A DNA stretch of 64,000 nt, from assembly GCF_017312365.1 (NCBI RefSeq), contig NZ_BLJI01000003.1, positions 124,001 to 188,000 of the forward strand, written 5' to 3'. Shown in pieces: positions 6,233 through 20,416 of this stretch (position 1 is the first letter of the stretch; every line of letters begins with the position of its first letter). The notes beneath the pieces were generated by a model, which was not told where the DNA came from, searched no databases, and worked only from the letters and a program-made list of their open reading frames with translations. A program made the translations under genes and the position numbers. This DNA comes from Chroococcus sp. FPU101 (lineage in GTDB: Bacteria; Cyanobacteriota; Cyanobacteriia; Cyanobacteriales; Microcystaceae).

Positions 6233-7779
6233 ATGACTTCATTTGATTTTATTATTGTGGGTGGGGGAACAGCAGGTTGTGTTCTAGCCAATCGACTGTC
6301 AGAAAATCCTGATCTAAGTGTATTAGTATTAGAAGTAGGTGGGGAAGTAACACCCGATTCAGAAGATGTACAGCAATGGTGTGATCTCATCGGAAGCGAC
6401 ATCGACTGGAATTATCAAACCATAGAACAGCCGAGCTTAAACAATCGAAAGATTAAGCAACCGCGAGGTAAACTATTAGGGGGTACGAGTAGCCTTAATG
6501 GGATGTTATATACTCGTCCATTACGCCACAATTTTGAACAATGGGCATCCGAGGGTGCGATCGGATGGAATTACGAAAATATAGTACCCTATTTACAGAA
6601 ACTAGAAGATTTTGACCAAAGCGGCGATCCCATCTTAGGACATCACGGAATACTACACCTAACAACGCAAGAAGTCAATACTGACAAGCATCATGTATAC
6701 AAAAATATACTAGAAACCTGTCATCATTTAGGCTATCCCATCTATGACAATTTTAGTGCTTCTGAATTTATTGAAGGCTCTGAGGGATTAGGATGGTTTT
6801 CGGCTAATATTAAAGATAATAAAAGATATGGAGCGGCTCAAGCGTATCTAAAACCCGTGATGAACCGTAGTAATCTTACAGTCATCACCCATGCACAAGC
6901 GACTCGTATACTCATCGAAAACGATCGCGCGATCGGATTGAATATATGTACCAAGGGCAGCTAAGACAAGCCGAAGTTAAGCGAGAAGTCATATTAGCAG
7001 CAGGTAGTCTTGAATCTCCGAAACTCTTATTATTATCAGGGATCGGGGCAGAAAATGAATTAAAAAAACATAACATTCCGCTAAAACTTTCATTACCTGG
7101 AGTCGGTGAGAATTTTCACGATCATGTGACCGTTTCTAGCCATTTCGTCCTAAAATCAGACGTTGAAGAACCAGTTTGTAATTTATGTCGTGTCGCACTT
7201 TTCGCTAAGTCTGATCCCTCAATGCCTGTTAGCGACTTAGAATATTTAATGATGGTCACAACCCAACACGATGAAACAGAACAAGAAGCTAAAGCATTAA
7301 CGATCCATGTCTCAATTCAAGTCCCAGTTTCCAGAGGATGGGTTAAATTAGCTAGTAATGATCCCTTAGCCGATCCCTTGATCCATCCTAATCTATTAGG
7401 TGAAAAAGCCGATCGCGATCGTTTAATCGCTGCTATCCAAAAAGCCCGCCAGCTAGTTAAAACAGAACCCCTAGCAGGAATCATCGAACGGGAACTAATC
7501 CCTGGTCAAAAGTATCCAACAGATGAAGCATTAGACACTTTTATCAGAGAACAGGCACAGTCTCAATGGCATATTTGCGGTTCTTGTAAAATGGGTATTG
7601 ATGATATGGCTGTTGTTAACCCAGAACTGATAGTTAGGGGTTTAAATAATGTGCGTGTGGTCGATAGTAGTATTATGCCCTCAGTCGTCACAGGACACGC
7701 TCAATCAAGCATATTCGCCATTGCTGAAAAAGCCGCAGACCTTATTATGGCTAATCTTTACCAACTCCAAAATAGTTAG
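6233..7779 (+). pseudogene. GMC-family oxidoreductase, interrupted by a one-base deletion
   Basis: Two abutting frames together make one FAD-dependent glucose-methanol-choline oxidoreductase of ~515 aa. The first frame (6233-6964) has the dinucleotide-binding GGGTAGCVLA motif and the GMC signature around RGKLLGGTSSLNGM. The second has LAAGSLESPKLL, GENFHDH and the C-terminal active-site region WHICGSCKMG. Adding one base between 6936 and 6937 joins them as AIGIEYMYQGQL, the sequence expected there. So the lesion is a single missing nucleotide, either a recent mutation or a read error. A second oddity is His in GHAQSS where the family often has Asn. It overlaps the convergent SMP-30 gene by 29 bp; a sugar or alcohol oxidation role fits that neighbour. 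Confidence 0.85.
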
Positions 7780-10517: not shown

Positions 10518-10587
10518 GGCTCAACTTTATGTAATCTGGCTAAAACCTGCGATTGCCAATAAAGACAGCTACAATAGAAGGAGAGAA

Positions 10588-10604
10588 TGCAAGTAACACT
10601 TACA
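10588..10604. promoter_or_regulatory. Candidate TetR operator 1
   Basis: TGCAAGTAACACTTACA is a 17-bp near-palindrome (7-bp arms, 3-bp centre, one mismatch between arms). It resembles the perfect copy at 10638 and lies in the desC/tetR divergent intergenic region, 60 bp before the chosen regulator start. Length and symmetry fit a TetR-dimer site. Confidence 0.55.
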
Positions 10605-10637
10605 TCTTTTTTAATTATAATCATCATTTCTTTGTTT

Positions 10638-10654
10638 TGCAAGTACCACTTGCA
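10638..10654. promoter_or_regulatory. Candidate TetR operator 2
   Basis: TGCAAGTACCACTTGCA is a perfect palindrome of two 7-bp arms around ACC, ending 9 bp before the ATG at 10664. Its centre is 50 bp from that of operator 1. Binding here would block translation-proximal transcription of the regulator gene (autorepression); control of desC is also possible. Confidence 0.6.
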
Positions 10655-10663
10655 TTATTGTTC

Positions 10664-11872
10664 ATGGTCTCCTCGCAAAATTCAACTAGAGCGCGTTTAA
10701 TTGATGCGGCTCTTAAGTTATTCGCTACTCAAGGTGTTACTGCAACGACTACTAAACAGATCGCAGAATTAGCCCAAGTTAATGAAGTGACCCTTTTCCG
10801 TCATTTTGGTAGTAAGCATGGATTACTCTTAGCCGTTATCGAAGAATCAGAGATACTCACTCATCTAAGCCAAACGTTTTTAGAACAGTCTGCACCTCTA
10901 GTAGTCCTTGAGCAAGCGATCAAAAGTTATTCGACTTCCTTCTTACTCGCTTTAGAGCAATTTCCAGAGGTGGTACGTTCCCTAGTAGGAGAAGCAGGAC
11001 AATATCCCGTCGAAAACCGAAAAGCACTCGGTAAGGAATTAAGCGAAGCGAATCGCTATGTAGCTAAATCGTTAGAAACAGCGATCGCTAATAGCTCAAA
11101 ACATTCCTATCTGAGTCCAGAAAAATTAGCCAGTTTACTGAATGCCATGTTGTTAGGCTATGCTGCTATTGAATTAACAACAGAGCATCACGAACTTTGG
11201 CAGAATCGGGAGGATTTCTTAGAAACTTTAGTGATTTTATTCTTGTCTGGAACAGTAGCAGCACAGTCAGTCGAATTAGTTCCAGAAAAAGCGGCTGATT
11301 TACCTGCTCCTTTAGTACATTTACTTCTGCAACAGGCCAAAAAACAAGGTTCACAAGAATACGCTCTCATGTATGTCCTGTTTGGTTCTGGATTAACACC
11401 CGCAGAAATAAGTACCTTAGAACGATCGCACTATATCAATCATTCTAACGGTCAGTTCTTGCGGCTCACCCAAGGATCAGTACGAGAAGTTCCCCTGAAT
11501 CAATGGATTTTAGGTAAGCGTTACGGTTCCTATACACGCAATCCTTTGACACGATGGCTGAAAAGCCGTAAGGACAGTCACTCAGCTTTATTGATCAGTC
11601 CCACTGGCGAACCTCTTTCAGAAACTCTGATCAGGCAACAATGGCAAGAAATTATAAATGCTTTACCTCCTCCTCAAAAATCCCCCACTATCGAGCAGGC
11701 ACAAGTAACCTGGTGTGTTGAGATGCTAACTAGAGGACTATCTGTAACAGAATTGCATCTTCTGACAGGTTTGAATGTCTCAGTACTACAGTCCTACGCT
11801 CTTCGGGCCGAAAAACTAGCCACTTTAGAAAAAGCCATCCGTTACGATCGTGTATTGCCAGATTCAACTTAG
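10664..11872 (+). CDS. TetR-family regulator fused to a degenerate tyrosine-recombinase-like domain
   Basis: From the ATG at 10664 the protein has ~402 aa, about twice the TetR norm. Residues ~1-190 are a TetR repressor: helix-turn-helix ARLIDAALKLFATQGVTATTTKQIAELAQVNEVTLFRHFGSK region, then a ligand domain. From ~220 on the pattern is that of a phage-integrase/Xer fold: ALMYVLFGSGLTPAEISTL, GSVREVPLN, ALLISPTGEPLS, and a final SVLQSYALRAEK. The catalytic Arg of the GLR motif is Thr and the HxLRH box is absent, so it cannot recombine DNA as written. An upstream in-frame start (10553) would read through the operator palindromes and is less likely. Role as regulator of desC is inferred. Confidence 0.7.
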   Translation: MVSSQNSTRARLIDAALKLFATQGVTATTTKQIAELAQVNEVTLFRHFGSKHGLLLAVIEESEILTHLSQTFLEQSAPLVVLEQAIKSYSTSFLLALEQFPEVVRSLVGEAGQYPVENRKALGKELSEANRYVAKSLETAIANSSKHSYLSPEKLASLLNAMLLGYAAIELTTEHHELWQNREDFLETLVILFLSGTVAAQSVELVPEKAADLPAPLVHLLLQQAKKQGSQEYALMYVLFGSGLTPAEISTLERSHYINHSNGQFLRLTQGSVREVPLNQWILGKRYGSYTRNPLTRWLKSRKDSHSALLISPTGEPLSETLIRQQWQEIINALPPPQKSPTIEQAQVTWCVEMLTRGLSVTELHLLTGLNVSVLQSYALRAEKLATLEKAIRYDRVLPDST

Positions 11873-11882
11873 TTGTAGTTGT

Positions 11883-12911
11883 TCAAACTGAGACTAATGT
11901 TTCATCAATCATTATCCCTAACAATTCATTAAGAGGTATTTCCGAAGCTTTTGCCATCGTAGAAATAACACTCTTGGATGCAAAAGAACAATACAACCCT
12001 GCTTCGATAAACCAAGGTTGTCCATATGGATCAATACGGAAATCAAAAAGACTATAATGACGACAGCCTAAAGCTTGATGACATTTTTTAGCTATTTCTT
12101 GAACTCGTTCGGTTGCAGGATCGCTCTTATCTACAATCCAAGATTTCTTATTATCTTTAGCCGCAAAACTTAATTCACCTTCGTCCGTAGCTTTGAGTTT
12201 ATCAGCATAGGTGCGAATGGGGTTTTTATCGGGAATGACTAAATATTCCTCAAGGGGTAAACCGACTAATTTACCATCTTTAACAATAACACCGCCTCTG
12301 ACTTCTCGACCGAGTTCGATAAACTCTTCTACAATGACCTCATTTGAATGTTCAAAGGCTTTTTTTAGAGCAGCATCATAGTCAGCACTATTGGTAACTA
12401 AAGTAACCCCTAAAGAATTGGCAGAAGACTCAGGTTTAACGACAACTGGAGGCTCAATAGTCGGAATATCACCTTTACGAAGTAATTCACTATGAGGAAC
12501 CTTAACACCTGCTGCACTAACGATTGCTTTTGCTCTGGCTTTATGGAGTGCGATCGCCATCACATCTGGAGTATTACCGATATAAGGAATGCCAAGTAGG
12601 TCGAACAGTGCGCGGTAATAAGTCATTCCCGCAGTACAAAACATTTGTGGCAACACTAGATCAATATTTTTTGAAGTGATGAACTGTATCGCATCACAGA
12701 GGGACATCGGTTTAGCTGTATTGATATCTTCTTTATTAAGGGATGAAGGAAAACGCCACAGACCATCGGGTGTGATATATGCAATATAGAAATCATAACG
12801 CGATCGATCTGCCGTTGTGATTAGACAGTCTTGAGCGTAGAGACGTGATAGATCGCAGTAAAATTTATTTTGTGCAGACCCAACAACATGAAGGATACGA
12901 AGCACTGACAT
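11883..12911 (-). CDS. mysD: MysD, D-Ala-D-Ala-ligase-like MAA synthetase
   Basis: 342-aa ATP-grasp enzyme of the D-alanine-D-alanine ligase type. In MAA biosynthesis MysD joins a second amino acid (commonly Ser or Thr) to mycosporine-glycine, giving shinorine or porphyra-334. ATP-grasp elements are visible: PPVVVKPESSANSLGV, VIVEEFIELGREVRGGV, and a C-terminal FDFRIDPYGQPWFIEAG metal/ATP site. An AAGGAGA ribosome binding site precedes the ATG. It converges on the TetR gene and is divergent from mysH; assignment as MysD rather than a cell-wall Ddl rests on the adjacent mysABC and mysH genes and overall resemblance. Confidence 0.88.
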   Translation of the reverse strand: MSVLRILHVVGSAQNKFYCDLSRLYAQDCLITTADRSRYDFYIAYITPDGLWRFPSSLNKEDINTAKPMSLCDAIQFITSKNIDLVLPQMFCTAGMTYYRALFDLLGIPYIGNTPDVMAIALHKARAKAIVSAAGVKVPHSELLRKGDIPTIEPPVVVKPESSANSLGVTLVTNSADYDAALKKAFEHSNEVIVEEFIELGREVRGGVIVKDGKLVGLPLEEYLVIPDKNPIRTYADKLKATDEGELSFAAKDNKKSWIVDKSDPATERVQEIAKKCHQALGCRHYSLFDFRIDPYGQPWFIEAGLYCSFASKSVISTMAKASEIPLNELLGIMIDETLVSV

Positions 12912-12999
12912 ATATAAATCTCCTTAACTCAAATAATTAACTTTACTGTCATCTATCAAATTTGTTAGAAGTAGTTAGATTTTTACTAAAAATTACTAT

Positions 13000-13383
13000 T
13001 TAGTAAGCCAAGTTTCTATCACTATATCATCTATCAAAAATTGATAAATAGCAAATAATTTTGTGATTTTTTTGTTAACTCAACTCATAAAATTATGTTT
13101 TATAAAATAAAAAACACAACTGTCCTAAGTCAGATATTTTAAATTATTCTTTAGTTAGATGCCAAATCAAACATAAACAAATAAGCTCGACTTAGTAAGC
13201 CAAGTTTCTATCACTATATCATCTATCAAAAATTGATAAATAGCAAATAATTTTGTGATTTTTTTGTTAACTCAACTCATAAAATTATGTTTTGTAAAAT
13301 AAAAAACACAACTGTCCTAAGTCAGATATTTTAAATTATTCTTTAGTTAGATGCCAAATCAAACATAAACAAATAAGCTCGAC
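13000..13383. repeat. 192-bp tandem duplication in the mysD/mysH divergent promoter region
   Basis: Bases 13000-13191 are repeated immediately as 13192-13383. By eye the copies differ at one position (A at 13102, G at 13294). Near-identity in AT-rich non-coding DNA implies a recent duplication. The pair fills most of the 546-bp gap (12912-13457) between the divergent mysD and mysH genes, so it duplicates whatever control sequences lie in the unit and moves one copy away from mysD. Nothing else was recognised in this gap. Confidence 0.95.
13032..13046. promoter_or_regulatory. Palindrome inside the duplicated unit (also at 13224-13238)
   Basis: TATCAAAAATTGATA, two 6-bp arms around AAA, occurs once in each 192-bp copy. 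A related half-site, ATCTATCAAATTTG, lies at 12951-12964 nearer mysD. It is a candidate operator or stem for MAA gene regulation; no regulator is identified. Confidence 0.4.
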
Positions 13384-13457
13384 AAAGAGACATTTTGTAA
13401 CATCGTCACTTCATTAACTCAAAGCATCAATAAAGTTTAAAAAGGATCAAACATAGA

Positions 13458-14252
13458 ATGTTGATAGTAAATAGCAGCCAAATTAGCCGCCAAGAAATTG
13501 AAAACTTTAAGCGAGACGGTGTGATCTGCCTTAAAAATGTTGTTGATCATCTTTGTGTAGAACGGATGCGAACAGCCGTTGATCGCAATTTATTAAATAG
13601 CAATGGAGTTCGAGGAAGAAAACTAAAAACAGGTGATGTTGTTCATGATTATGGACTTTGGCTCAAAGATGATGATTTCCGTGATTTAGTGTTTAAATCT
13701 CCTCTAGCGAGGGTTGCTGCTCAAATTATGGAATCAGAAAAAATAAACTTTTTATGTGACGGTTTTTTTGTGAAAAAAGCAAAAGCCGATAGTTATGTGG
13801 GATGGCACAATGATCTACCTTATTGGCCTGTTAAGGGATGGAAATGTTGTAAAATTTGGCTGGCCTTAGATCCAGTCAATAAAGAAAATGGACGATTAGA
13901 ATATATTAAAGGCTCTCATTTATGGAATAAAGATTTACGAGAAAACTCTAATGTTTCTTGGTTTTCTGAGCCAGACTCATCTGAAATTTTATTTTGGGAT
14001 ATGGAGCCTGGTGATGTTTTAGTTCATCATTTCCAGACGATACATCATTCAATCGGTAATACAACTTCTATGTCAAGACGTGCCATTGTAACGAATTGGA
14101 CTGGTGATGATGTTGTTTATGATTCTCGCCCGCAAACATGGCCGTTTCAACCAATTGAAGAAATTGGAATACCAGAATTTAAGTCAATAAAAACGCTTCA
14201 ATCTGGTGAACCAATTGATTGTGAAATATTTCCTAAAATTGACCTATATTAA
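13458..14252 (+). CDS. mysH: MysH-type Fe(II)/2-oxoglutarate dioxygenase (palythine formation)
   Basis: 264-aa phytanoyl-CoA dioxygenase (PhyH) family protein. The non-haem iron triad is visible: His and Asp in GWHNDLPYW (~residues 113-116) and the distal His in VLVHHFQTIHHS, followed by the oxoglutarate-binding Arg in SRRAIVTNW. MysH enzymes, members of this family in mys clusters, convert disubstituted MAAs such as porphyra-334 or shinorine to palythine-type products with a C3 amine. It opens a rightward operon divergent from mysD and is followed 11 bp later by a glycosyltransferase. An AAAGGA sequence precedes the ATG. The MysH call is by family and position. Confidence 0.82.
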   Translation: MLIVNSSQISRQEIENFKRDGVICLKNVVDHLCVERMRTAVDRNLLNSNGVRGRKLKTGDVVHDYGLWLKDDDFRDLVFKSPLARVAAQIMESEKINFLCDGFFVKKAKADSYVGWHNDLPYWPVKGWKCCKIWLALDPVNKENGRLEYIKGSHLWNKDLRENSNVSWFSEPDSSEILFWDMEPGDVLVHHFQTIHHSIGNTTSMSRRAIVTNWTGDDVVYDSRPQTWPFQPIEEIGIPEFKSIKTLQSGEPIDCEIFPKIDLY

Positions 14253-14263
14253 TTAAATCAATA

Positions 14264-15526
14264 ATGATTAAACCATTAATTGTTAGTAGCTATGATCCGA
14301 TCGGTGGGGCGGGTGCTTCTCGTTCAGCTTATCGACTCCATCAAGGCTTTCTTAAGTTAGGAATTGATTCTAGAATGCTCATTCAAGATAAACGGATGGA
14401 TGATCCGACTTTAGTGAGCGCACCGAATCAATTTGCTCAAAAAATCTGGAAAGCGCGTCGAGACTTGGATGCTTTACCTCTAAGAATTTATCAAAATAGA
14501 CAAAAGGGTGCGGTACTTTTTCCGATTCAGTGGCTTCCAGACATCATTAACCCGCAAATTAATAAACTTGCTCCAGATGTTGTTAATTTACGCTGGATCT
14601 GTGATGGTTTTCTACCCATCGAAGCATTAACGAAAATTAAAAAACCGATCGTTTGGACATTTGCCGATTTATGGGCGTTTACGGGCGGTTGTTGCTATTC
14701 TCAAGGATGTGATGGCTATACAAGATCTTGTGGCAAGTGTCCGATCCTAAAAAGCGATCGCAGTTGGGATTTATCTCGCTTAACTTGGCAGCGCAAAGCT
14801 AGAGCATGGAATGATCTAAAGTTTACTATTGTTACTCCGAGTCATTGGCTGGCTGAATGTGCTAGATCGAGTTCACTATTTTGGAATAAAGATATTAGAG
14901 TCATTCATCATGGTTTAGATATTGAGCTTTATCATCCAACTGAGCAAAAAAACGCAAGAAATATACTAAACTTGCCACAAGATAAGCATTTAGTTCTATT
15001 TGGGGCAATTAACGCGATTAATAACCATCGAAAAGGATTTTCTCTCTTACAAGATGCGTTGCAAAAACTGAGTCATTCAGAATGGAAAAATAAAATTAAT
15101 CTAATTGTTTTTGGGGCATCTCAACCCGAAAAACCAATAGAATTAGGTTTCCCAATTCATTATTTAGGTAAAATCGATGATGAACGTAAACTAGCTCTAC
15201 TTTATTCATCGGCTGATGTAATGATTGTGCCATCGACTGAAGAAGTTTTTGGACAAACTGCATCTGAATCTTTAGCCTGTGGTACGCCTGTAGTTTGTTT
15301 TGATACAACGGGTTTAAAGGATCTAGTTGATCATCAACAGAATGGATACCGTGCAGAGTGTTTGAGTAGTGAAGATTTAGCGAATGGTATTGCTTGGGTG
15401 ATCGAGAACCCAGAACGCTATCAGAAACTGAGTCTACAAGCACGTGAAAAAGCCGAACGCGAATTTAATTTATTAATACAAGCAGGTCGTTATTTATCTT
15501 TGTTTGAAGAATTGCTTCACTCTTGA
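14264..15526 (+). CDS. GT4-family glycosyltransferase in the MAA cluster
   Basis: 420 aa, GT-B fold, family 4. The N-terminal Rossmann half begins VSSYDPIGGAGASRSAYRL. A Cys-rich stretch follows (GCCYSQGCDGYTRSCGKCP, ~residues 141-159), then IHHGLDIELYHP, and the C-terminal nucleotide-sugar site EEVFGQTASESLACGTPVVCFD with the paired Glu of retaining GT4 enzymes. It lies 11 bp after mysH, in the same direction, so they are probably co-transcribed. Sugar-bearing MAAs are known in desiccation-tolerant cyanobacteria; a role in MAA glycosylation is an inference from position. Enzymes with this Cys-rich motif also occur in exopolysaccharide clusters. Its 3' end overlaps the convergent MATE gene by 10 bp. 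Confidence 0.75.
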   Translation: MIKPLIVSSYDPIGGAGASRSAYRLHQGFLKLGIDSRMLIQDKRMDDPTLVSAPNQFAQKIWKARRDLDALPLRIYQNRQKGAVLFPIQWLPDIINPQINKLAPDVVNLRWICDGFLPIEALTKIKKPIVWTFADLWAFTGGCCYSQGCDGYTRSCGKCPILKSDRSWDLSRLTWQRKARAWNDLKFTIVTPSHWLAECARSSSLFWNKDIRVIHHGLDIELYHPTEQKNARNILNLPQDKHLVLFGAINAINNHRKGFSLLQDALQKLSHSEWKNKINLIVFGASQPEKPIELGFPIHYLGKIDDERKLALLYSSADVMIVPSTEEVFGQTASESLACGTPVVCFDTTGLKDLVDHQQNGYRAECLSSEDLANGIAWVIENPERYQKLSLQAREKAEREFNLLIQAGRYLSLFEELLHS

Positions 15527-16875
15527 GTGAGATGATTAAATCGCCAGATAAAGAGAACGGCAACGACGACAGTAGCGACTAATTGCCCAATCCACAAACC
15601 TACACCGCCTAAGTTTAAACCAAAACCCAGTCCATAACCCACCGATAGACCAATACCCCAATAGCCTAGTATATTCAGTAACATGGGAATTTGTGTATCT
15701 TGTAGTCCTTGTAATGCGCCATAGACTGCTTTTTGGAATCCATCTAGAACTTGAGCGATCGCAGCAATCAGCACCAGTGGTAAGGCAATAGCAACGATAC
15801 CTGCATTGTCTGGATTCTGCACATCTAAATAAATCCCGATAATCTGCTTGGGGAATAGTAAAAAGGCGATCGATATACCAAGGGTAAAAAGTGTACTGAT
15901 ACTCATACTAACCCAAGCGGCTTGTTTAATTCTAGTGCGATCATTTCGTCCTAACCAGATACCAACACGCACCGTAGTCGCGTAAGAAATTCCTAACGGC
16001 ACCATAAACACTACAATAATGGTCTGCAACACAAGTTGATGAGCCGCTAAAACCTCAGTTCCTAATGTTCCCATCCAAAACATGATCACCATGAAAAAAC
16101 CCGTTTCTAAACCCGTAAATATTCCAATGGGTACACCAACCCAGACTAATTCCCAGAGAATTTGAGTTTTAACTTGGTGAAGTCGTTGGAAAATACGATA
16201 GTTTCTCAGGTTATGATTGATTAAGACATATAATGCTAAGGCGATAAACATTCCCCAGAGAGCCGATACACTTGCTATTGCTAATCCAGCTAATCCCAAT
16301 TGCGGAAAGCCAAATTTACCAAACCCCAAGATATAATTTCCAATAATATTAAAAACCGTTCCTGTTACCACAATCATCATGATGGGACGCGCTTGAGAGA
16401 GAGCCGAAACAGTGGCACGCAGCGCAGCAAATCCTATAGCTGGTAATAAGCCCCACCGCATAATATTTAGATAGGTATTGACATATTGTAGGGTTATCTT
16501 AGACTGTCCAGTGTGGTTGAGCCAAATATCAAGATGTCCCGTAATAATAATAAGTGGTAGTGAAACTAATAATGTTAGCCAAATTCCCTGACGAGCAATT
16601 TGTTCAATTCGATTTTTTTGACCAGAACCAAAAGCTTCGGCAATTAGTGGACTCACACCCATGACAATGCCACTCGCAGTCGTGATAATTGAGAGGAAGA
16701 TCATTGATGCTAGTCCACCTGCACCTAGGACATCGGCTCCCATGCGACCCATCATTACTGTATCAGCAAAACCGATCGCTGATTGAGCGACTTGTGCGCT
16801 CACTAGAGGAATGGCAAGTTTTAAAAATTCGCGGATTTCAGATTGGAGGTTAGATCGCAGTGAGGTAGAGGTCAT
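15517..16875 (-). CDS. MATE-family efflux transporter
   Basis: 452 aa with 12 hydrophobic helices arranged as two similar halves (FxDTVMMGRMGADVLGA near the start, and VLAAHQLVLQ in the second half), typical of MATE/NorM/DinF cation-coupled exporters. It lies 100 bp after mysC in the same direction and is probably part of the mysABC operon. Export of MAA or of a biosynthetic product is a reasonable inference from operon position; MATE substrates cannot be read from sequence. Confidence 0.88.
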   Translation of the reverse strand: MTSTSLRSNLQSEIREFLKLAIPLVSAQVAQSAIGFADTVMMGRMGADVLGAGGLASMIFLSIITTASGIVMGVSPLIAEAFGSGQKNRIEQIARQGIWLTLLVSLPLIIITGHLDIWLNHTGQSKITLQYVNTYLNIMRWGLLPAIGFAALRATVSALSQARPIMMIVVTGTVFNIIGNYILGFGKFGFPQLGLAGLAIASVSALWGMFIALALYVLINHNLRNYRIFQRLHQVKTQILWELVWVGVPIGIFTGLETGFFMVIMFWMGTLGTEVLAAHQLVLQTIIVVFMVPLGISYATTVRVGIWLGRNDRTRIKQAAWVSMSISTLFTLGISIAFLLFPKQIIGIYLDVQNPDNAGIVAIALPLVLIAAIAQVLDGFQKAVYGALQGLQDTQIPMLLNILGYWGIGLSVGYGLGFGLNLGGVGLWIGQLVATVVVAVLFIWRFNHLTQE

Positions 16876-16975
16876 GATTGTTTTTTTTCCGCGAGGAGTA
16901 GCTTTAATCGGGGATGAAAAAGAAAATTAGACTTATTATTCCTCGTCAAAGCATTGCATCTCAACTCTAGCTTGT

Positions 16976-18373
16976 CTAATCTCCCCCCATCTGAACTAAC
17001 TTACCAATATTAAAATCGATCCGAATCCAATCTTTCCCCTGTCGTAAATTACCTAGCAACAGTAAGGGAATTTGCCACCCATGAACCATTAGAAAAGGTA
17101 GTGGATCATTCCAACTAAAAATAGCATCCTTACCTCCGAACAGAATACCAAGACGATAGGCAACCTCTTTAGGTGAACTTAAATGCGTTACCAGTCGCCA
17201 AAGTTCATGATATGTCCAATAGGTAGGATGAGCCGAGGACAACGGTTGTAGGGGTTCTGAGAAAGGTTCTGGATCGAGGTATGCTTTGGCTAAGTCGGGA
17301 TGATTGTAGAATAGAGTGATCGCAGAGTGGGTACGGGGGTTACACTCGATCGCATATACTTCACCTGTTGGGGTACGGATGAAATCAAATGACATTTGTC
17401 CCGTTAGTTTCATTCCCTGTACAAACTGAGTTACCCATTGCTTGATCTCTGGTATATCTACAGCCTCGTAATTAACCTGAAAAGCTGAAGATTCACAGCA
17501 GCAATAGACCCGTAATTCACCATTCTTTACTGTACTATGAACACAGTACTCTTGACCTGTGATAAACTCCTGCATCACCCAAGGTTTGGTTTCTGAAATG
17601 GGTAGGGAATTGACAAACATTTCAGTATCTTGACGGGTTGCACAGGGTAGCTTAGTCAGGTTCAAACGATTAACTGAATCATAGGGAATGCTTTTAATAA
17701 TATAAGGATGAATTTCTTTTGAGAAATCAAAATCGAGAACTTGTTGAGGATGAGTGATTTTAAAGGATTTGGGAACGGATAAACCTAAGTCTGTTGCTGC
17801 TTGAGCAAACTGATATTTATCATCTAGTTGTTGTACCGTTTTGGCATCCTCATGGAAAACCTCACACTGTTGAGCCAAAAATTCTTTAGCCAGAGCATCA
17901 TAATAACTGGCTACAGGGCTACAAACTGGTACATATAGATCGATTTGTTCTTTTTGAGCAATATCGAGTAACCCTTGTAGATAGCCTTGGGTATCTTGCT
18001 TGGGGTCGGGTATAGTATAAAAGCGATCAACTGCCCATGAGTAGCGATGACCGACTAGCCAATACTTATGGGTTTCGACTAATACGACTCGATGCCCTGC
18101 CATATAAAACGATCGCGCTAACTGTAAGGCTTTCGTCATCTTTCCCCCACTAACCATTACAGTTTTAGGGTTAGATGCTATGACTCTTGGTCGAAATAGC
18201 CAACTAATCAGACTCCAAACTAAAGCCGCTAAAGTTAGTGCTAAATTGAATGGCAGCATCAATAATAACAATAACAGTGTCCCTAACGTTTTTAGTGATG
18301 ACCCTTGGATCGAGCGCAACCATCCGAATTTTGGTGAGATAGAATCAGCCGATGAATTAAAAAGATTATCCAT
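16976..18373 (-). CDS. mysC: MysC, ATP-grasp mycosporine-glycine synthase
   Basis: 465 aa. A hydrophobic N-terminal region (~residues 28-62, Leu-rich) suggests membrane attachment. A Rossmann-like segment (VMVSGGKMTKALQLARSF) follows, then the ATP-grasp domain (PYIIKSIPYDSVNRL, PWVMQEFITGQEYCVHS, MSFDFIRTPTGEVYAIECNPRTHSAI). MysC activates 4-deoxygadusol with ATP and adds glycine to give mycosporine-glycine. The IECNPRTHSA motif holds the metal-binding residues. It is 7 bp downstream of mysB and co-directional, the usual cyanobacterial order. Confidence 0.93.
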   Translation of the reverse strand: MDNLFNSSADSISPKFGWLRSIQGSSLKTLGTLLLLLLMLPFNLALTLAALVWSLISWLFRPRVIASNPKTVMVSGGKMTKALQLARSFYMAGHRVVLVETHKYWLVGHRYSWAVDRFYTIPDPKQDTQGYLQGLLDIAQKEQIDLYVPVCSPVASYYDALAKEFLAQQCEVFHEDAKTVQQLDDKYQFAQAATDLGLSVPKSFKITHPQQVLDFDFSKEIHPYIIKSIPYDSVNRLNLTKLPCATRQDTEMFVNSLPISETKPWVMQEFITGQEYCVHSTVKNGELRVYCCCESSAFQVNYEAVDIPEIKQWVTQFVQGMKLTGQMSFDFIRTPTGEVYAIECNPRTHSAITLFYNHPDLAKAYLDPEPFSEPLQPLSSAHPTYWTYHELWRLVTHLSSPKEVAYRLGILFGGKDAIFSWNDPLPFLMVHGWQIPLLLLGNLRQGKDWIRIDFNIGKLVQMGGD

Positions 18374-18380
18374 ATTGACC

Positions 18381-19181
18381 TCAGACTCGTCTAATGATCG
18401 TTAAGCCATCGCGCAAGGGTAATAATACCTGTTCAACGCGGGGATCATCGGCGACGTGACGATTGAACTGTGCGATCGCTACACCATTAGGAGATTGTTT
18501 TTGACTTAGATAAGGTTCGCCTTGCAACAAGGTATTATCAACACAGATAATTCCCTGTGGTGCTAATAAATTCGCCTCTAACAGAAAGTTGAAGTAATCA
18601 ATATAACTCCCTTTATCTGCATCGATGAACACCAAATCAAAGGACTCGCCATTATCAGATAATTGTCGCATTGTCAAGAGGGCTGGTGCTACTTTAACCT
18701 TGATTTTGTGACCATGAGGTGAATTGTCAAAACAGTGTTGAGCGAATTGAGCCACATAGGGATCGACTTCACAGGCTACTACTTGTCCATGCTCAGGTAA
18801 TGCTTCTGCCATTGCTAACGCGGAATATCCAGTAAACATACCGATTTCTAAAATTCGGGTCGCCTGGGTCATCTTTACGAACATTTTTAGTGTTTGCCCT
18901 TCCACGTGTCCTGAGAGCATTTCCTGTTCTAGAGGAACTTCTGTAACCTGTTGTTGCCAGTTTTGGCTCCATTCTTCTTGCTGAGTTTTAGCACTAAGTA
19001 AGCGTAGTGGCTCCGAGTCGGGTGTCGTACAGTCTTCTAGATAGGGATCGAGTCCTGATGCAAGTTGATAGGCATACCATATCTCATCTTTTAAAACTGT
19101 ATCCGTTGTATCAATTTTTTGAACAATCGACTCTAAGGTTTTTGCTAAAATCCCTAATGGTGTAACTGGACGAGGCATCAA
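18381..19181 (-). CDS. mysB: MysB, O-methyltransferase forming 4-deoxygadusol
   Basis: 266-aa class I SAM-dependent O-methyltransferase resembling caffeoyl-CoA O-methyltransferases. Motif [17 protein letters not shown] binds [12 protein letters not shown] and [13 protein letters not shown] hold the acidic ribose and metal residues. MysB methylates the cyclitol made by MysA to 4-deoxygadusol, the MAA core. Its ATG overlaps the end of mysA (ATGA at 19178-19181), a sign of translational coupling. Confidence 0.93.
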
Positions 19182-20416
19182 TATGTCTCCATCAAATTAG
19201 CGGATGGTTCTTTGATACTGATGTACATTTCTTCCCCATCGCCTTGACGTGGGTAATTCTGACAAATTGCCCTATGCAAGAGTAAAGAATTATCTAACTC
19301 TTCACGGGTGAGGTCATTCATGAAGATACAGGTACCGATGGGTTTTGGTGCAGCAGCGCGGAGTAAACCATCACGAGTACGGGTGATCGATTGGGTGGCT
19401 TTCCAGAGTAGTTCGCTGGTGAGATATTCGCTATCGAGTGCTAGACCAATACGACTCATGACCCCTAAAATACGATCGCGTTCTTCAACAGTAATATAAC
19501 CCCGTTGTTGAGCAATAGTTGCGGAGATGGCCATATCAATATTGACCGCATGACCATGATACATAGGAATTTGAGGCGTAAGTTCTAGCGTTGGACTCCA
19601 AGTATGACCATAGGCGATCACTCGATCCAAGTCAAGTTCATGTAGGTTGGGTACTTCTAGTTCCAACATCGTCTTAATTGCATCGTAGGTGACCTGATGA
19701 CCAATTTCTCGGAGTTCTGGAGTACCGTTCAGATAGCCGAAATGGGTATTTAGTAACTTTTCGCCGTACTTCTCTAGTGCTTGAAAAATTTCTGAATTAG
19801 AAACAACCGCAATTTTGATCAGTTCTGCCATACCATTGCGAATTTGAGCAATAGGTAGTGTTCGCAAAAACGAAAAATCTAAAATAACTTTTTGTGAAGC
19901 GTGATATGCTCCTAAACGGTTTTTTAGCTTACCATGATTAACTGCAACTTTGATCGCGACACTTGCATCGATCATTCCGATCAAAGTTGTGGGAATACGA
20001 ATGTAGTTTGTTGCACGACGGTAAGTTGAACAAGCAAAACCAGCAACATCAGTAATTAAACCACCACCAACGACGAGTACAGGTTCTTTCCGTAGTAAAC
20101 CAAAATCCGCAAATTGGTCAACGATCAATTCAAGAGTATCTAGAGTTTTATCTGTCTCTCTAATGGTAATTGGAAAAGCCGTTAATTCAATCTCATGGTA
20201 ATCAAAATAATCTTGCATCTGTTCGCCATAGAGATTGTATACTGCTTGATCCACAATCATCAAACAGCGTCCTAATTTGCGATAGCTATCTGCGATCTCA
20301 GTATTCTCTTTTTTAAAAGCTCCATCTACATAGAGCAAGCTAAATTCGATTTTTTCGTAGCCTTCGACATGAAAAGCATTATCTGTTGCCGTAAAACTCG
20401 ACTGAATGACACCCAT
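19178..20416 (-). CDS. mysA: MysA, sugar-phosphate cyclase (desmethyl-4-deoxygadusol synthase)
   Basis: 412-aa dehydroquinate-synthase-like sugar-phosphate cyclase that converts sedoheptulose 7-phosphate to desmethyl-4-deoxygadusol. NAD-binding [18 protein letters not shown], the loop [14 protein letters not shown], and the metal ligands Glu (MAELIKIA), His (IAYGHTWSP) and His ([10 protein letters not shown]) are visible. The surrounding mysB/mysC genes separate it from ordinary AroB and from 2-epi-5-epi-valiolone synthases of other pathways. First gene of the leftward operon mysA-mysB-mysC-MATE; the 141-bp gap to the next gene upstream should contain its promoter. Confidence 0.93.

Follow-up and report, generated by a model that had tools for sequence, protein, structure and literature searches.

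Chroococcus sp. FPU101 probably carries the full gene cluster for making a palythine-type MAA that is glycosylated. The cluster lies in the 64-kb window that was analysed (contig C3:124001-188000 of the 5.29-Mb genome), and we put the probability of the whole reading, a full proposed pathway with a threonine-linked hexosyl product and export by a MATE protein, at about 0.8. The identities of MysA to MysD and of MysH, the threonine-type pattern of MysD and the grouping of the GT4 glycosyltransferase with mysH-linked GT4s are read from the sequence; the final product, its sugar and the transport step we infer. The features, in window positions, are:

11883-12911, minus strand: mysD, ATP-grasp ligase of the D-Ala-D-Ala ligase type (Pfam Dala_Dala_lig_C, 2.3e-19)
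12912-13457, no strand: mysD-mysH divergent promoter region, intergenic, flanking genes oriented apart
12985-13368: 192-bp tandem duplication (copies 12985-13176 and 13177-13368) inside the divergent region
13458-14252, plus strand: mysH, Fe(II)/2-oxoglutarate dioxygenase expected to turn disubstituted MAAs into palythines (PDB 9c9n/9pze, E 1.7e-116; tree; invariant residues)
14264-15526, plus strand: GT4 glycosyltransferase of the mysH-linked (MysG-like) group (Pfam Glycos_transf_1, 5.4e-25)
15517-16875, minus strand: MATE transporter, NorM-like, candidate exporter (Pfam MatE, 4.5e-52; NCBIfam TIGR00797 above cut-off)
16976-18373, minus strand: mysC, ATP-grasp ligase forming mycosporine-glycine (NCBIfam NF005315, 8.2e-147; Pfam ATP-grasp_3; tree)
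18381-19181, minus strand: mysB, O-methyltransferase leading to 4-deoxygadusol (Pfam Methyltransf_3, 7.7e-54; tree)
19178-20416, minus strand: mysA, sugar-phosphate cyclase of the DHQS-like family (PDB 5tpr, E 8.2e-191; tree)

All seven genes are intact open reading frames and lie, mysABCD and mysH included, where the original prediction had placed them, as the frames and the Pfam and NCBIfam assignments bear out. The canonical set of cyclase, O-methyltransferase and two ATP-grasp ligases is present together according to Pfam, NCBIfam, trees and PDB comparisons, and mysH is linked to it. The genes form three transcription units: mysD on the minus strand, mysH-GT4 on the plus strand and mysA-mysB-mysC-MATE on the minus strand. 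The layout had been described as a pair of opposed operons flanking a divergent promoter. This holds for mysD and mysH-GT4, which diverge from the 546-bp region at 12912-13457, but mysABC-MATE is a third unit that makes no use of that region and instead converges on mysH-GT4, with a tail-to-tail overlap of 10 bp (15517-15526). Spacing within the units is tight, with 11 bp between mysH and the GT4 gene and, from mysA to MATE, a 4-bp overlap, a 7-bp gap and a 100-bp gap. Scans of the 64-kb window for tRNA and Rfam families found nothing.

Because the same gene set and order recur in the congener Aphanothece hegewaldii CCALA 016, where gene content is identical and the proteins are 90-95% identical, the locus is not a product of chance or of an assembly accident. 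The two loci differ in the divergent region and in the genes beyond mysD. The two 192-bp copies in the window are 96% identical, and since they carry mismatches a simple assembly artefact is unlikely; in A. hegewaldii the mysD-mysH region is about 355 bp and the unit is single. Promoter-like matches in the divergent region are no more frequent than expected by chance, and promoter and terminator scans gave site counts no higher than in shuffled sequence. Beyond mysD, the window encodes at 10553-11872 a 439-aa TetR-type regulator, weakly XerC integrase-like in its C-terminal part, with 10 bp between its end and that of mysD; A. hegewaldii has a nucleotidyltransferase-HEPN pair in its place. Further out, at 6233-7779, the gene for a GMC oxidoreductase, intact in A. 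hegewaldii (515 aa), is broken in two in the window by a single-base difference near 6937.

In the proposed pathway, MysA and MysB would produce 4-deoxygadusol, to which MysC would attach glycine, yielding mycosporine-glycine. MysD, whose omega loop has the F-S pattern, would add mainly threonine, giving porphyra-334, and MysH would oxidise the glycine side chain, which is lost, to leave palythine-threonine. The MysG-like GT4 would then add a hexose, and the resulting hexosyl-palythine-threonine has a predicted [M+H]+ of 451, the value reported for the MysG1 product (PMC11378024). Export of the product or of an intermediate is the most likely task of the MATE protein. Palythine-serine derived from shinorine is also possible given the promiscuity of MysD. 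The saclipins, UV compounds of Aphanothece sacrum, were considered as the cluster product and dropped, as they are oxylipins.

The nearest published system is the mysABCJ1D1G1H cluster of Nostoc sp. UHCC 0302 described by Arsin et al. in 2024, in which the GT4 enzyme MysG1 glucosylates palythine-threonine (PMC11378024). Both clusters hold mysABCD, mysH and a GT4 gene, and the product of the Nostoc genes in E. coli is glucosyl-palythine-threonine. The Nostoc cluster differs in having mysJ (Branch type), in its gene order, in its filamentous host and in that no MATE gene is reported for it; MysJ, the second glycosyltransferase of that system, is absent here. The glycosyltransferase had been proposed to extend known mys layouts, a claim that falls with the prior publication of MysG, and an in-cluster glycosyltransferase is therefore rejected as a new feature (PMC11378024). 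The window GT4 itself is 67-70% identical to the mysH-adjoining GT4s of four Nostocales loci (L005, L022, L075 and L151), and in the GT4 tree a clade of nine, starred there, unites it with the mysH-linked GT4s and includes two copies (G036 and G339) without a demonstrated mysH neighbour. It is thus best called MysG-like, an assignment made via neighbours of the same layout and not an identification with MysG1 itself.

The GT4 could act on exopolysaccharide. In the strongest of the alternatives, biosynthesis would run as far as palythine-threonine, with the GT4 and MATE proteins as bystanders serving extracellular polysaccharide or general detoxification, and the product would be unglycosylated and intracellular. 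About half of the order's genomes do contain, outside mys clusters, more general GT4s of about 60% identity or less, with related GT4s at about 50-58%; MATE proteins of the NorM type act as general exporters of multiple drugs, and the closest homologues of this MATE protein lie away from mys genes. Against this, the window GT4 falls in the mysH-linked clade, and in a Nostocales genome that has both kinds it is 68% identical to the GT4 beside mysH and 55% to the GT4 elsewhere. The 11-bp spacing of mysH and GT4, with both genes kept in two species, and the demonstrated glucosylation of palythine-threonine by the GT4 of the published cluster (PMC11378024) point the same way, and we regard the bystander explanation as rather unlikely.

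The MATE gene is where the locus departs from known layouts. Membership of the MatE family is certain, and the linkage to mys genes is seen in one genus only. A survey of transporters covered 87 mysC-bearing loci, about 20 of them picked for holding mysH, and a window-like MATE was found in A. hegewaldii alone, in the same slot 3' of mysC. The suggestion that a MATE gene in the cluster extends known layouts is thus upheld among the surveyed loci; the novelty holds for this gene alone, the rest being a known kind of cluster. None of the closest MATE homologues elsewhere (71-77% identity) has a mys gene less than about 8 kb away. One surveyed locus, L160, carries a different, GntT-like MATE gene, divergent and upstream of mysA, and for this reason a blanket exclusion of MATE genes from the vicinity of other mys genes was softened. 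A search of viral contigs for the MATE protein returned nothing.

Other lineages have other transporters at their mys clusters. Fourteen of the 87 loci, spread over several families (L079, L082-L084, L086, L089, L092, L099, L102, L109, L157, L158, L160 and L161), have a PutP-like SSF symporter gene immediately after mysC or a short way downstream of it, and these symporters are about 60-75% identical in most compared pairs, with higher values for close relatives. A 481-aa MFS protein sits beside mysH in 15 Nostocales loci. The window MATE gene occupies the slot downstream of mysC that an SSF gene fills elsewhere, which fits a transport role, although the slot does not demonstrate one. That the MATE protein serves specifically to carry glycosylated palythine-threonine out to the sheath, different lineages having recruited SSF, MFS or MATE transporters, is a possibility that we advance only tentatively. 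The open-access literature, to which the search was confined, gave no paper tying mycosporine to a solute symporter and none joining mysD, MATE and transporter.

The amino acid carried by the product depends on MysD. In an alignment with controls of published specificity, the omega-loop residues F249 and S257 of the window MysD form the threonine-type pattern F-S. The control rows read Y-S for Nostoc PA-18-2419 and F-S for N. linckia, both matching the published patterns. The pattern C-A, published for Microcystis, is read in the rows of one genus of the window's own family (g7), which is probably Microcystis, and the agreement of all three checks the alignment columns. Zheng et al. have shown that these two residues set the preference for serine or threonine, the threonine-preferring pattern being F-S, or X-S except L-S (PMC11983340). 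A preference for threonine is therefore predicted for the window MysD, and since mysD is present in a single copy in the genome the expected flow is from porphyra-334 to palythine-threonine. A mainly serine-type cluster, running from shinorine to palythine-serine through MysD promiscuity, would find some encouragement in the finding that every characterised MysD yields more than one product (PMC11983340) and in Nostoc sp. UHCC 0302, whose major native product is of the serine type. In that strain, however, this is owing to a second MysD (PMC11378024), and here there is only one; moreover, all tested natural F-S enzymes gave mainly porphyra-334 (PMC11983340). We consider the serine-type outcome improbable. 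The threonine-type pattern and the 192-bp duplication are additions to what the original prediction contained.

The best PDB match of MysA is 5tpr (E 8.2e-191), which we take to be the Anabaena variabilis MAA cyclase although it was deposited as a 3-dehydroquinate synthase; the cyclase 4p53 follows at 3.8e-73 and true DHQ synthases reach only about 1e-31. In trees, mysC and mysB are placed with their counterparts from other mys clusters. Among the 14 SSF-type clusters, ten encode a divergent MysA with about 38% identity to the window MysA; for that of L160 (7393-8715), 5tpr is still the closest PDB entry and not a DHQ synthase.

A generic PhyH identity for the dioxygenase, with no role in MAA synthesis, has virtually nothing in its favour beyond PhyH being its sole Pfam family, set against the match to crystallised MysH (E 1.7e-116, the next PDB protein, SnoK, being at 2.5e-9), its place in the MysH clade and the position of mysH between mysD and mysC, which is the same in Nostoc HK-01 and Dendronalium; a generic identity is rejected at the sequence level. 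In a 40-row tree the window protein lies within a cyanobacterial MysH clade of 27 rows (SH-aLRT 100) that is set apart from the PhyH proteins of other bacteria by a long branch, the stem measuring 1.62 changes per column. The residues H117, D119, H196 and R207, an HxD...H metal triad and a 2-oxoglutarate-binding arginine, are invariant in the MysH alignment; their roles are presumed from the general pattern of the PhyH family. Identity to the crystallised MysH, whose nearest tree row is Nostoc paludosum, is 62%, with the metal and 2-oxoglutarate residues kept, and the window MysH lies with a divergent Nostocaceae copy (G068) outside the main Nostoc group. That copy (L146:10266-11063, 67-69% identity) is distant from mys genes, with mysABC on another contig, and is flanked, by gene appearance, by an ABC1/AarF-like kinase and valyl-tRNA synthetase. 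The phylogenetic check proposed earlier thus places the dioxygenase with mys-linked MysH and not with non-MAA PhyH proteins. Judged by clade and catalytic residues it is a true MysH, and a palythine-type product, as first suggested, is the best prediction.

The mysH gene is uncommon: of the 389 genomes sampled from the order 12 have it, and within the family it is confined to this genus; most Nostocales copies adjoin mysABCD. Nostoc sp. HK-01 (plasmid1, AP018319) and Dendronalium phyllosphericum CENA369 share with the window a backbone of mysD on the minus strand, mysH on the plus strand and mysC, mysB and mysA on the minus strand, but neither has GT4 or MATE between mysH and mysC. The trees point to different affinities within the cluster. 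MysA, MysB and MysC fall with a clade whose members include genomes of genus g7 and of families f2 and f31 (support 99, 93 and 99, respectively). MysD lies outside that group, with MysDs of Nostocales type; it is 93% identical to its A. hegewaldii counterpart and 71-77% to the MysD of most Nostocales mysH clusters, and membership of the chroococcalean MysD group was rejected when it was forced there (AU p 0.00024). As mysH and GT4 are Nostocales-like in the same way, the simplest reading is a mosaic, with mysD, mysH and GT4 added as a module to a mysABC set that is older. This reading is no more than suggestive, because alternative placements of MysA (AU p 0.28) and MysC (p 0.16) are not rejected.

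We would class the cluster as a variant of the glycosylated-palythine mys type that is already known. Its host is a unicellular, colonial cyanobacterium, whereas the pathway is otherwise met mainly in Nostocales, and the cluster offers both an exact product prediction, hexosyl-palythine-threonine, and a compact set of genes for production in a heterologous host. It further suggests that the transporters of mys clusters are specific to lineages, a point relevant to the route of MAAs to the extracellular matrix. If the MATE protein is indeed a dedicated exporter, it would for the first time open the release of glycosylated MAAs from the cell to genetic study.
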